Of a DNA stretch of 64,000 bases, positions 47,665-57,139 are shown piece after piece; the first letter of the stretch is position 1; each line of letters begins with the position of its first letter. Location: positions 1-64,000 of the forward strand of contig NZ_LKKW01000002.1 in NCBI RefSeq assembly GCF_001891165.1. Reading direction: 5' to 3'. The notes beneath the pieces were generated by a model, which was given only the letters and a program-made list of their open reading frames with translations, searched no databases and was not told where the DNA came from. The position numbers and the translations under genes are program-made. The stretch is from Streptobacillus ratti. GTDB taxonomy: Bacteria; Fusobacteriota; Fusobacteriia; Fusobacteriales; Leptotrichiaceae.

Positions 47665-48966
47665 CTATTGTCCTAAATTTGTTAATAATGCTTTAAAGCT
47701 TGCTTGTACTTCTTTATATGCCTCTTCTGGAGTTGCAGGTTTTTTAGCTTCCCATGAAAGTAAAGCATTTTCCCATGTTGTCCATACTTGTCCCCATTCT
47801 TGGAATAATGGTCTTGAAATAGCTCCTTCATATCCTTCTATAACTGAAGTTATAACTTTTTTATCTAATTCTTCTAATTCAAGTTTAGCATATTCATCTG
47901 TAGAAACGTTAGGCATGATTTTACCTGTTATTTTATAGAAATCTGCTGCAAACATTGGATTCATAATTTCAGCTATTACTGCTTCAGATAAAGCTAATTT
48001 TTCCATGTTTTCTTCATTTCTAGCATTAATTGATAAAGCCCATCCACCTTTCCAGTGTTTTAATTCTTTACCAGCAAATTTAGCTTGATTTAATCCAGCA
48101 ACTTCTAAGTCTTCTCCAACTAATCCTGACCAAGCTGCTAATTCCCATGGACCAGAAATTCTAACTGAACCTTTTTTACCAGTTTTGAAATTATCATCCA
48201 TGTATCCATAAACTGCTGTTATATCAAAAATAGGAAGTTTTTTATCATTTGATTCTTTCCAATATTTATGTAATCCAACAAACATAGTTTGTACTTCTGG
48301 AGTTAATTCTGCCCAATCTTTTGTTAAGTCAGAAAAGAATTTATCTCCATCTTTACCTAATAATTCTACACCAAATCCATTAGTTATAGCAACAGCCCAC
48401 CATGCGTTAAATACAGGTATCATAGCAACTTCAGGAGAAAGTTCAGCTAAATCTAAATTAGCTAAATCTATTCCGTTTGCTGCAACGTTTTTAGTATTGT
48501 ATCCTAATAATAATGTTTCAATATTGAAAGGGAATCCATAGTATGAACCATCAAATTTTAATTGTCCACCAAGTCCTTTATCAAAATCTCCAAATCCACC
48601 AATTTTATTACCTAAAGCTTTAGCATCAAATGAAGCTAATAAGTCTTTTCCGTGTAATGATTCTATTCTATCTAATGGTATAGCAAAAACGTCAGCTACA
48701 TCTTCATTTTCAGCATTAGTTTCTTCAATAACTTTCATATGATCAAATGAACCAATAACTTTTAAATCTATTGTAGCATCAGGATTTTTTTCCTTAACTC
48801 TTTCTATTGCTGCCTCATAATAAGGTTTCCAAGATTCTTCAGCTTGTACAACTATATGTCCTGTTAAACCTTCTCCATTTCCAGTTTTAACATCTCCTTT
48901 AGAACCACAAGATATTAATAAAGAAAACGCTAAAAATACACTTGTTGCAAGTTTCTTAAAATTCAT
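47665..48966 (-). CDS. malE: Maltodextrin-binding lipoprotein MalE (copy 1)
   Basis: The lipoprotein signal ends in lipobox LLISC (Cys about 20), then GSKG. The rest is a 433-residue periplasmic binding fold with the maltodextrin-binding pattern HIVVQAEESWKPYY, NAENEDVADVFAIP and GYPFN-like GFPFNIETLLLGYNT. It ends LLTNLGQ. It has its own promoter with a LacI-type operator and leads the mal transport operon. Copy 2 at 55844-57139 is highly similar (three-quarters or more identical by eye). Confidence 0.9.
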   Translation of the reverse strand: MNFKKLATSVFLAFSLLISCGSKGDVKTGNGEGLTGHIVVQAEESWKPYYEAAIERVKEKNPDATIDLKVIGSFDHMKVIEETNAENEDVADVFAIPLDRIESLHGKDLLASFDAKALGNKIGGFGDFDKGLGGQLKFDGSYYGFPFNIETLLLGYNTKNVAANGIDLANLDLAELSPEVAMIPVFNAWWAVAITNGFGVELLGKDGDKFFSDLTKDWAELTPEVQTMFVGLHKYWKESNDKKLPIFDITAVYGYMDDNFKTGKKGSVRISGPWELAAWSGLVGEDLEVAGLNQAKFAGKELKHWKGGWALSINARNEENMEKLALSEAVIAEIMNPMFAADFYKITGKIMPNVSTDEYAKLELEELDKKVITSVIEGYEGAISRPLFQEWGQVWTTWENALLSWEAKKPATPEEAYKEVQASFKALLTNLGQ

Positions 48967-52855: not shown

Positions 52856-53659
52856 CTAATTTCCTACTGATGAATATTTTTTTTCTAATTTTTTAAATAA
52901 TAAATATGACATTACAAAAAAAAGTATTCCTGCTAAAGGAAAAAATAAGTCTAAATAATTATTTTGAGGTTTAATCTTATTTAATATTATACTTATTGGA
53001 TAATATGATACTAATGTTACTGGCAATATATATGAGAAAAAATCTTGTATATATTTTGGAAATACATCTTTTGGATATTGCATCATTGATACACTTCCTT
53101 GTATAAATATTCCTGTAAATTCAATATATTGTGTAAATAGAAATGTTAATGAGCCTACAGCAATATATATTCCAGCATAAAGACTTGTTGATGAAGCTAA
53201 AACAAATAACAAGTAGATTAGCTTATATATATTACTAATGTGTTCAAAATTATAGAATAAACCAATAATTAAAACAAATATAGCTAATAATAACCTACCT
53301 ATTCTCACGGGCTGAAAATTATATGCAGAAATTTGTAGCAATGTAGAATATGGTCTTAATAAATATCTATCGTATTTCCCCTCTCTTATTATAGATTGAA
53401 TATTTGATTCAAATCCTCTAAAAAATACTTCTGAAAATGAAAACGAAAAGTTAATTATTCCATAAAGTAAAAAAACTTCTGTTAATTTCCAATTATTTAA
53501 ACTTCCAAATTTATTAAATAAAGATAATAATCCTAAAAATTCAAATAATATTATTAGTAATTGATTAAATAATCCTACCATAAAATTAGCTTTATAGACT
53601 AAATTAGATTTTAAAACCATTTTTATTATATGTATATATTTTAGCATACTAACCTCCAT
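52856..53659 (-). CDS. ABC-2 family permease, module B second subunit
   Basis: A 267-residue permease with about six membrane segments; REGKYDRYLLRPYST is the DUF990-type loop. The last residues KKYSSVGN echo KRYESSGS of module A, showing they are counterparts. It overlaps the first subunit by 11 bases. Confidence 0.8.
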   Translation of the reverse strand: MEVSMLKYIHIIKMVLKSNLVYKANFMVGLFNQLLIILFEFLGLLSLFNKFGSLNNWKLTEVFLLYGIINFSFSFSEVFFRGFESNIQSIIREGKYDRYLLRPYSTLLQISAYNFQPVRIGRLLLAIFVLIIGLFYNFEHISNIYKLIYLLFVLASSTSLYAGIYIAVGSLTFLFTQYIEFTGIFIQGSVSMMQYPKDVFPKYIQDFFSYILPVTLVSYYPISIILNKIKPQNNYLDLFFPLAGILFFVMSYLLFKKLEKKYSSVGN

Positions 53660-54455
53660 AAATTTCTAATCTACTTGTAAATTTCTCATAGACTTTTTTA
53701 GAATATTTATAAAATATAAATATCCATATAAGTTGTATCATTATTTGTAAAAAAATCTCCTTATAATCATAAACACCATTAAATATTAATGCTGGTGTAT
53801 CTACGATAAATTTAAATGGTTGATATTTTAAATACACAACTAACTCTTTAGGATAAAAAGATAATGGAATTATCATACCTGATAACATAAAAGTAAGAGA
53901 TGTAATCAAACCTATAAAATTAGAGATTGATGTAAATATGAAACACAGACTATATATTGAAACAGTAATCAACGAACTTAATATAGTAGATAAAAAAATA
54001 CTTATTAAGAAAAAGAAAAATATATAGATTTTAGGTAATATTATTGAAATCTCACTTAAATTAAAGATAGGGAATATAAGTAATACAATTATAAACATAG
54101 GTACTGACCTTACTAAAAATCCAACTAATCTCCATGAAAATGTTTTAGAAAAAATTGAATTAAATATACTAACAGGTCTAATCAAATCAATGGAAATAGT
54201 ACCCGTCCTAATAGAATCAAAATCTTTCCAATTTATATTCCAAGGAACTATCATAAATAAAAATTGTGTCATCCAAATATATGTAATAGTTTGAGAAACA
54301 CTCATTGGCGATAACAATTCATTTTGGGAAACAAACGCAGTTATTGTATATATTCTAAATATTGCGAAAAATAACTGTGTTACTATTCCAGAAATAATTG
54401 ATATTACAAATTTTTTTGAAAGTTTCATTTCTTTAATAATTTGGCTAAGTAACAT
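53649..54455 (-). CDS. ABC-2 family permease, module B first subunit
   Basis: A 268-residue permease with about six membrane segments; the end TSRLEIYGG corresponds to KIRLQVNGG of module A. A strong AAAGGAGG ribosome site and a consensus promoter precede it, so it heads the exporter operon. The left half of a split terminator and the IS lie just upstream. Confidence 0.8.
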   Translation of the reverse strand: MLLSQIIKEMKLSKKFVISIISGIVTQLFFAIFRIYTITAFVSQNELLSPMSVSQTITYIWMTQFLFMIVPWNINWKDFDSIRTGTISIDLIRPVSIFNSIFSKTFSWRLVGFLVRSVPMFIIVLLIFPIFNLSEISIILPKIYIFFFFLISIFLSTILSSLITVSIYSLCFIFTSISNFIGLITSLTFMLSGMIIPLSFYPKELVVYLKYQPFKFIVDTPALIFNGVYDYKEIFLQIMIQLIWIFIFYKYSKKVYEKFTSRLEIYGG

Positions 54456-54508
54456 TAAATAATCCTCCTTTTATATTTTTTATTCTACTAAATTTTAATT
54501 AGCTTTTT

Positions 54509-54537
54509 ATTATACCCAGCTAATACTATTTTGTCAA
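54509..54537 (-). promoter_or_regulatory. Consensus promoter of the ABC-2 exporter operon
   Basis: TTGACA (54537-54532) and TATAAT (54514-54509), spacer 17, minus strand: a perfect sigma70 promoter. It lies 2 bases beyond the T-tract of the IS-split terminator. Confidence 0.85.
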
Positions 54538-54545
54538 GACAAAAA

Positions 54546-54562
54546 ACTACACCTACAAAATC
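54546..54562 (-). terminator. Left half of an IS-split terminator (3' arm on the minus strand)
   Basis: ACTACACCTACAAAA pairs with TTTTGTGGTGTAGT at 55797-55810, with one bulged T. The minus-strand T-tract (TTTTTT, 54545-54540) follows this half. The halves are now 1.2 kb apart because of the insertion. Confidence 0.75.
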
Positions 54563-54597
54563 TCCTAAATTCCAAAAGTAAGTGTCCAAAAAAGAAG

Positions 54598-54626
54598 TTG
54601 AAAAAAAATAGGATATACAGTACAAT
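54598..54626 (+). promoter_or_regulatory. Predicted transposase promoter
   Basis: TTGAAA (54598-54603) and TACAAT (54621-54626), spacer 17. The predicted start near 54633 lies after the left arm of the hairpin at 54611-54664. Confidence 0.6.
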
Positions 54627-54664
54627 CATAAATGACGAAATCTATTGAAAGGAACTGTATATCC
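54611..54664 (+). repeat. Inverted repeat controlling transposase translation (predicted)
   Basis: GGATATACAGT (54611-54621) and its perfect complement ACTGTATATCC (54654-54664) enclose the ribosome site and touch the ATG at 54665. Only transcripts that read in from outside contain both arms. Confidence 0.7.
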
Positions 54665-55759
54665 ATGACTAATAATAACACATATTTTGAAATTAATAAA
54701 GAGAAAAAATTTAAACACCTTACTAAAGTTGATAGAGGTATAATATCTCATATCCTTAAAGAACATAACATTAAAGATTTAACCAAATATATTATTAAGC
54801 CCTCTACTAAAAACAGAAAATATTTTATCTCTGTATTAAATAAAATTTCTATTTCTTTAAATAAATCTATCAAAACTATTAAAAGAGAAATAACTAGAGG
54901 TACTATTAAACAACTTGATATTTTCTATAGACCTATTTTAATTTATGCTTTTAATATATCTCATGATAAATATAGAGAAAGAATTACTAAAAAAGAATTA
55001 CCTCTTAAAATTGATAATAATACTAAATTACCTTTTGAAATAGCTAGATTATTAAATAATAAATTTTCTCCTTATGCTATTATTCAAATTCTTAAGAGTA
55101 AGTATAATATTAACTTTTCTATTCAAACTCTATATAATTATATACATAAAGATTTATTTAAGTTTGTTGGATATAAAAAAGTTGATAATACAATAATATA
55201 TAAGAGTAAGGGTAATAGAACATATAATAAAAGAGTTATTAAATCTGGTGGTTTATCTATTGATGATAGAGAAGATTTAGTTAATTTTAGAGAAATATTA
55301 GGGCATTGGGAGATTGATACTGTTGTTGGAATTAGAGAGGGTAAATCTAAAGTTATACTTACTCTTACTGAAAGAGTTTCAAGATTAAATATTGTTACTT
55401 TATTAGATGCTAAGACTAATGATAATGTTATTAAAGAGGTTAAGAAGATAATTAAAAGTAATAAGTATTTAATTCATTCTATTACTTCTGATAATGGTGT
55501 TGAATTTTCTAATGTTAAGGATATTAACGATTTGGGGGTTAAGTGGTATTTTGCTCATCCTTATTGTTCTAATCAGAGAGGTTCTAATGAGAATAATAAT
55601 AAGTTTATTAGAAGATTTATTAATAAGGGTAAGTCTATGAATAATTTAAAGAAAAAAGATGTTAAATTTATTGAAAATTTTATGAATAATTATCCTAGAA
55701 AAATTTTCAATTCTTCAACATCTTTACAAGTTTATGAGTGCTTGTTAAATCTTATTTAA
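54665..55759 (+). CDS. IS30-family DDE transposase
   Basis: The transposase (364 residues from the ATG at 54665; an in-frame ATG at 54632 lies at the predicted transcription start and is less likely) has an N-terminal helix-turn-helix region with SISLNKSIKTIKREI. The DDE core is complete: HWEIDTVVG (Asp), TSDNGVEF (Asp) and GSNENNNKFIRR (Glu). Nothing is broken, so it may be active. Codon use is as AT-rich as its surroundings. Confidence 0.92.
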   Translation: MTNNNTYFEINKEKKFKHLTKVDRGIISHILKEHNIKDLTKYIIKPSTKNRKYFISVLNKISISLNKSIKTIKREITRGTIKQLDIFYRPILIYAFNISHDKYRERITKKELPLKIDNNTKLPFEIARLLNNKFSPYAIIQILKSKYNINFSIQTLYNYIHKDLFKFVGYKKVDNTIIYKSKGNRTYNKRVIKSGGLSIDDREDLVNFREILGHWEIDTVVGIREGKSKVILTLTERVSRLNIVTLLDAKTNDNVIKEVKKIIKSNKYLIHSITSDNGVEFSNVKDINDLGVKWYFAHPYCSNQRGSNENNNKFIRRFINKGKSMNNLKKKDVKFIENFMNNYPRKIFNSSTSLQVYECLLNLI

Positions 55760-55794
55760 TTCTTTTTTTGGACACTTACTTTTGGAATTTAGGA

Positions 55795-55810
55795 TCTTTT
55801 GTGGTGTAGT
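55795..55810 (-). terminator. Right half of the IS-split terminator
   Basis: TTTTGTGGTGTAGT (55797-55810) is the 5' arm on the minus strand of the hairpin that would follow malE copy 2; its partner is at 54546-54560. Confidence 0.75.
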
Positions 55811-55843
55811 ATTTTCAATCTTTAGTATTAATACTTACTTTAT

Positions 55844-57139
55844 TTATTGACCTAAATTTGTTAATAATGCTCTAAAACTTGCTTGTATATCCTTATAAGC
55901 TAACTCTGGTGTAGCAGGTTTTTTAGCTTCCCATGAAAGAATAGCATTTTCCCATGTTTCCCATACTTGTTCCCATTCTTTAAATAAAGGTCTTGATACT
56001 GATACTTCATATCCATCTATAACAGCATTTATAGCTTTTTTATCTAAATCAGATAAATCAACTTTAGCATAATCTTCTTTAGAAACATGTGGCATAACCT
56101 TACTTGTATATCTATAAAAATCAGCAGCATATTCAGGATTCATAATTTCAGCTATCACAGCCTCTGATAAAGCCAATTTATTAGCATCTTCTTCATTTCT
56201 AGCATTGATAGATAATGCCCAACCACCTTGCCAGTGTTTTAATTCTTTACCTGCAAATTTAGCTGTGTTAAGTGCTGCCACATCAAAATCATCTCCAACT
56301 AATCCTGACCAAGCAGATAATTCCCATGGACCTGCAATTCTAACTGAACCTTTTTTACCAGTTTTAAAATTATCGTCCATGTATCCATAAACTGCTGTTG
56401 TATCAAATAAAGGAAGTTTTTTATCATTTGATGCTTTCCAATATTTATGTAAACCAACAAACATTTTTTGCATATCTGGAGTTAGTTCTGACCAATCTTT
56501 TATTAAATCAGAAAAGAATTTATCTCCGTCTTTAGCTAATAACTCAACTCCAAAAGCGTTAGTTATAGCAACACCCCACCAACCATTTATAATTGGTATC
56601 ATTCCAACTTCAGGTGAAATTTCAGCAAAATCTAAATTAGATAAATCTACTCCATTTATTACAACATTTTTAGTATTATATCCTAATAACAATGTTTCAA
56701 TATTAAAAGGGAATCCAAAATATGAATCATTAAATTTTAAATGTCCTCCAAGTCCTTTATCAAAATCTCCAAATCCTCCAAGTTTTACACCTAAAGCTTT
56801 AGCATCAAATGGAGCTAATACATCTTTTTTATAAAGAGATTCCATTTTATGTAATGGAACAGCAAATACATCTGCCACATCTTCATTTTCAGCATTAGTT
56901 TCTTCAATAGCTTGAATATGGTCAAAAGAACCAATAACTTTTAAATCTATTTTAGCTTCAGGATTTTTTTCTTTAACTCTAGCTATAGCTTCTTCATAAT
57001 AAGGTGCCCAAGTTTTTTCAGCTTGTACAACTATATGTCCTGTTAAACCATTGTTAGTTTTTTCTGATATTTTAGAACCACAAGATAGTAATAAAGAAAA
57101 CATTAAAATTCCACTTGTAACAAGTTTTTTTAAATTCAT
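55844..57139 (-). CDS. Maltodextrin-binding lipoprotein MalE (copy 2)
   Basis: A 431-residue lipoprotein (lipobox LLLSC, Cys about 20) closely similar to MalE copy 1 along the whole length, with the same ending ALLTNLGQ. Differences concentrate in surface positions (for example KTWAPYYEEAIARV against ESWKPYYEAAIERV). It has no permease genes after it; exporters and an IS separate it from copy 1. It has the same promoter layout and an identical operator, so it should be co-regulated and share MalFGK. It may bind a different range of glucans. Confidence 0.9.
   Translation of the reverse strand: MNLKKLVTSGILMFSLLLSCGSKISEKTNNGLTGHIVVQAEKTWAPYYEEAIARVKEKNPEAKIDLKVIGSFDHIQAIEETNAENEDVADVFAVPLHKMESLYKKDVLAPFDAKALGVKLGGFGDFDKGLGGHLKFNDSYFGFPFNIETLLLGYNTKNVVINGVDLSNLDFAEISPEVGMIPIINGWWGVAITNAFGVELLAKDGDKFFSDLIKDWSELTPDMQKMFVGLHKYWKASNDKKLPLFDTTAVYGYMDDNFKTGKKGSVRIAGPWELSAWSGLVGDDFDVAALNTAKFAGKELKHWQGGWALSINARNEEDANKLALSEAVIAEIMNPEYAADFYRYTSKVMPHVSKEDYAKVDLSDLDKKAINAVIDGYEVSVSRPLFKEWEQVWETWENAILSWEAKKPATPELAYKDIQASFRALLTNLGQ

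Follow-up and report, generated by a model that had tools for sequence, protein, structure and literature searches.

An IS30-family insertion sequence in the probable malE2 terminator of Streptobacillus ratti belongs to a Fusobacteriota clade that very probably inserts at a fixed distance from promoters

Results

An IS30-family element lies between malE2 and an ABC exporter operon

The window analyzed here is the whole 64,000-nt stretch at the start of contig NZ_LKKW01000002.1 of S. ratti. It contains, on the minus strand, the solute-binding protein gene malE2 (55844–57139), which is 78% identical to a malE copy at 47668–48966, and the first gene of an ABC exporter operon (53649–54455), an ORF that is collinear with malE2 in G002, a genome of the same genus. 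Between the two genes lies an insertion sequence of 1,230 bp (54564–55793, plus strand). Its left, promoter-proximal terminal repeat (54564–54593, plus strand) and its right terminal repeat (55764–55793, minus strand) are identical at 30 of 30 positions, and the 4-bp target site duplication (TSD) ATCT flanks it on either side (54560–54563 and 55794–55797, unstranded). The 375-aa transposase (54632–55759, plus strand) was identified through its match to the IS30-family model NF033563 (E 2e-62, 211 bits compared with a cut-off of 80) and through the candidate catalytic residues D229, D287, and E320, which were placed by motif. The second-best family, IS481, scored under its own cut-off, and Pfam models matched neither the transposase nor MalE. 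The IS30-type DDE transposase, the perfect terminal repeats in the range of ~20–30 bp, the single long ORF, and the short TSD (ATCT here; GAAC at copy C17/C19, for which the relative G001 has the exact empty site) are in agreement with an IS30-family element.

On the exporter side, we predict a promoter with a −35 box TTGACA (54532–54537, minus strand) and a −10 box TATAAT (54509–54514, minus strand). This TTGACA-17-TATAAT arrangement matches the consensus at 12 of 12 positions and scores 12.7, with its −35 box 26 nt from the IS end (+26), and the insertion leaves the promoter core intact.

The insertion split a hairpin that is very likely the former malE2 terminator

Removal of the IS and one TSD rejoins the flanks into ACTACACC-T-ACAAA-ATCT-TTTGT-GGTGTAGT; a TTTTTT tract (54541–54546) comes next on the malE2 strand. 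The two minus-strand halves, at 54546–54559 with a bulged T at 54554 and, downstream of malE2, at 55798–55810, give a stem of 13 bp with one bulged T and the loop ATCT. The rejoined RNA folds at −14.7 kcal/mol (z −3.6). When pairs were forced to span the TSD, the site reached −16.6 kcal/mol, a value as low at only 4 of 4,394 intergenic window positions (0.09%). The preliminary description had placed an IS30-family element exactly in the loop of such a hairpin, with a 13-bp stem, a bulged T, and a minus-strand T-tract; the element boundaries, the identity of TSD and loop, and the rejoined flanks bear this out. Its proposal that the hairpin was the malE2 terminator is very likely correct.

A scan of positions 54400–56000 found that a terminator-like site is no longer present between malE2 and the exporter, which makes read-through from malE2, also anticipated in that description, plausible. 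Such malE2 transcripts would now run antisense through the IS. Comparison with relatives lacking the element had been suggested as a check. The empty locus is seen in G002, where malE2 adjoins the exporter gene without an IS, but the terminator in the G002 gap is unrelated in sequence to that of the window and thus offers no homologous counterpart of the hairpin. In G001, a hairpin also follows malE2, but different genes lie beyond it.

Further copies in the genome and in a sister species

Insertion sites were resolved from the S. ratti genome itself (G000; 146 contigs), from the sister species G003, and from empty sites. In G000, an 89%-identical form (B copies) contributes about 20 additional ends, mostly at contig ends; for several copies, assembly breaks within the IS leave just one flank visible. 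Copy pairs were rebuilt through their duplicated bases and synteny, giving TSDs of ATAT for C10/C34 and TACA for C14/C53. For the pair C2/C5, the joining relied on a 7-bp TSD and on stem arms that match, rather than on synteny; this TSD, CCCCCTT, equals the 7-nt loop of a hairpin, whereas 4 bp are duplicated at other copies. The elements of G003 are a 65%-identical form, and two of their ends, C307 and C27, form one pair. C24R was left out of the resolved sites because the relatives are rearranged there. We found no target motif in the TSDs beyond A+T richness.

Diverged IS30 elements occupy the same intergenic junctions in G000 and G003 at four places (C10L/C92, C4L/C307, C1R/C290, and C14R/C297), and G001 and G002 have no IS30 element at these junctions. 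The shared junctions suggest that the same promoters have been targeted repeatedly.

Most insertion sites share a fixed distance to a predicted promoter

The feature shared by most sites is a TTGACA-like box 25–28 nt from one IS end, together with a properly spaced TATAAT-like box. Promoters were predicted with a sigma-70 matrix, taking the best outward promoter for each of 36 IS ends from G000 and G003, and the null rate was drawn from the intergenic positions of one 64-kb window. At a score of ≥6, 12 of the 36 ends had a −35 box at +24 to +28, compared with 2.1% of the intergenic positions (binomial, 6e-12); at a score of ≥8, the corresponding values were 10 of 36 and 0.7%. The −35 box lies at +26 in the window, C4, C27, C47, C52, C53, and most B copies, at +25 in C19, at +27 in C34, and at +28 in C2. 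Among the G003 ends, C301, C306, C307, and C308 have it, in each case at +25, the −35 box of C301 being weak. With promoter spacers anywhere between 16 and 19 nt, the distance to the −35 box stays near 26 nt. The copies that depart from the rule are C1R, C49L (+11), C318 (+10) and C290 of G003, and the intragenic C11R and L310.

The promoter is also found in the empty sites of relatives (C46R, +26; C32R, +27). The empty sites of C17/C19 (in G001) and of C46R (in G001 and G002, 99% identical) already carry it, indicating that the promoter predates the insertion.

Several of the promoters have G runs of 9–11 nt between the −35 and −10 boxes (e.g. TTGACAAAAATGCAGGGGGGGGGGGTATAAT). They occur at L251, L243, L246, L236, the left flank of G000 C27 (L218), and C15 (L271). 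Runs of this kind would be expected of promoters whose phase variation is driven by slippage.

The spacing extends to related elements of other Fusobacteriota

A 45%-identical element in G065 is present in 11 complete copies with a 15-bp TSD. Ten of the 11 right ends have a promoter at +25 to +27, eight of them exactly at +26. Because the TSD is 15 bp in this type and 4 bp in the window, the fixed point can only be the promoter-proximal IS end. In a later set of seven right ends from G065, G089, and G010, none of them used before, six had a promoter at +26 or no more than about 1 nt away from it (L311, L304, L306, and L307, +26; L312, +27; L308, −10 box at most 1 nt off expectation), three of which combine a good −10 box with a weak −35 box. 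Relatives of the element in three further genera of Fusobacteriota have the spacing as well. The transposases of the window, G003, G065, G030, and G010 form one clade (support 100/99), within which G030 is less exact, with promoters at +14, +24, and +29.

Duplication length differs by clade (4, 13, or 15 bp). IS30 relatives with 13-bp duplications occur in Fenollaria timonensis (L193–L207) and at other Firmicutes loci. The promoter spacing was absent from the Firmicutes relatives examined, namely those in Fenollaria, Facklamia, and Marinilactibacillus and a number of single copies, mostly with a TSD of 13 bp. Three of six IS30 copies in Caldicoprobacter (L135–L140) have a promoter at +25 to +27 from an IS end, which is no more than suggestive of a possible second promoter-targeting branch. 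In G065, the flanks of the two IS copies L109 and L118 are exchanged, with the TSD of one matching that of the other, which points to recombination between IS copies.

Hairpins, symmetric targets, and selection as alternative explanations

The preliminary description had proposed that the element targets hairpins; on this reading, the transposase would cut a terminator or cruciform at its loop. Three of about 12 resolved sites are indeed hairpin loops, with site-centered energies of −16.6 (window), −13.3 (C2/C5), and about −10 (G003 C307/C27), an excess over plain intergenic chance (p 0.001), and IS1630 is reported to behave in this way. As a general rule, however, the proposal fails, since most resolved sites lack a hairpin. 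Copies in non-palindromic targets, which that description itself had named as evidence against hairpin targeting, are found at C17/C19, C11R, C1R, C32R, and G003 C290, and no comparable site-centered hairpin was present at these sites or at C27L; for B copies other than C17/C19, this comparison used the sequence of a relative in place of the empty site. The insertions C10/C34 and C14/C53 are found just past the T-tract of an intact terminator. C4L was considered as a further hairpin insertion and rejected: G002 shows a hairpin at this locus, but G000 retains it unbroken at another place (C15), so that it is not the site of C4L. Moreover, hairpins of −10 or better occur at the same position upstream of 3–4% of 93 other predicted promoters. 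Against this background, hairpins at 3 of 15 promoter-placed insertions give a p of about 0.02, which rises to 0.12 if the window copy, which had prompted the search, is left out. Once promoter position is allowed for, the hairpin preference is weak, and we regard hairpins as the primary target as improbable.

A combination of both signals, in which the promoter sets the approximate position and palindromes or hairpin loops are favored inside the 25–28 nt range, would accommodate the short palindromes at the cut of C10/C34 (TTTATATAAA) and C14/C53 (TTTTAT-TGT-ATAAAA), the shift of C2/C5 to +28 with a 7-bp TSD matching its loop, and the preference of classical IS30 for nearly palindromic hot spots. 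Symmetry is absent at C17/C19 and G003 C290, however, and significance is out of reach with so few sites. We consider this combination rather unlikely; a minor preference for symmetric targets inside the allowed range of promoter distances is possible. Selection alone, with random insertion and survivors confined to the terminator-promoter gaps where they do least harm, would fit the mostly intergenic sites and the unharmed promoter cores. It leaves unexplained both a precision of ±1 nt, exemplified by the exact +26 of 8 of 11 G065 copies, and the missing spacing in the Firmicutes copies, Caldicoprobacter apart, and we judge it highly improbable.

Discussion

We conclude that the window element very probably belongs to a Fusobacteriota clade of IS30-family elements whose insertion point is fixed with respect to sigma-70-type promoters. 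The sequences show the fixed spacing, predicted promoters already present at the empty sites, and a single clade. According to the model we propose, one IS end would be joined 26 nt (25–28 nt) upstream of the −35 hexamer, roughly at −60 from the transcription start and just outside the contact between RNA polymerase and DNA, and the second nick would fall 4 bp (window) or 15 bp (G065 type) closer to the promoter. Where intergenic regions are compact, that spot would often lie in or beside the terminator of the upstream gene. In the window, it would coincide with the loop of the malE2 terminator, so that the terminator is split and the core of the exporter promoter is spared.

The constancy of the distance despite staggers of 4 or 15 bp and spacers of 16 to 19 nt argues for one strand-transfer point set from the −35 side. 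Since the −35 boxes differ in sequence, a plausible determinant is contact with the bound RNA polymerase or with the structure of the DNA upstream. We infer that the transposase reads either the promoter itself or the bound polymerase. More tentatively, this IS30 clade may have evolved promoter-guided integration independently, with promoter-bound sigma-70 RNA polymerase, or the alpha C-terminal domains of this enzyme, positioning the transposase to cut one strand near −61 regardless of the local sequence or the stagger (4 or 15 bp).

Promoter-anchored integration has so far been described as unusual and confined to two Mutator-like families. If our reading is true, near base-pair precision exists in an unrelated transposase family and in four Fusobacteriota genera, and this mode of integration has more than one origin. 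That the distance holds across unlike staggers opens the mechanism to testing. The promoter rule would also explain the frequent landing in or beside terminators, which alters transcription at operon junctions. We found no promoter rule for IS30-family elements in the open-access literature; as most subscription papers lay outside this search, novelty is provisional.

Within the IS30 family, the targets of E. coli IS30 are hot spots of nearly palindromic sequence and its own inverted repeats (PMC9333248). It resembles the window element in its IS30-family DDE transposase, its short TSD, and its nearly palindromic hot spots, but it targets hot-spot sequences or its own ends, and the open-access literature yielded no rule of promoter distance for it. 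The IS30-type IS1630 of Mycoplasma fermentans, in the account cited in PMC3317919 (Calcutt 1999), is reported to target inverted repeats, with flanking duplications of 16–26 bp in which the inverted repeat is reportedly duplicated. By that account, it differs from the window element, whose 4-bp TSD is the loop alone, and only 3 of our roughly 12 resolved sites fall in such repeats, not the majority.

There is also a likeness to TnGBS/ISLre2 (p-MULT 3) and the ISKra4 group (p-MULT 4), whose insertions lie a short, constant distance upstream of sigma-A promoters (Guerillot 2014, PMC3942029), much as those of the window clade do at a distance of their own. In TnGBS/ISLre2 and some ISKra4 elements, the −35 box lies 13–17 bp from the inverted repeat junction, and orientation is fixed if the terminal repeats differ and free if they match (PMC3942029). 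These elements encode Mutator-like transposases, whereas that of the window is of the IS30 family, and their 13–17 bp contrasts with the 25–28 nt of the window clade. The window clade works like the promoter-targeting p-MULT elements but is not a member of them.
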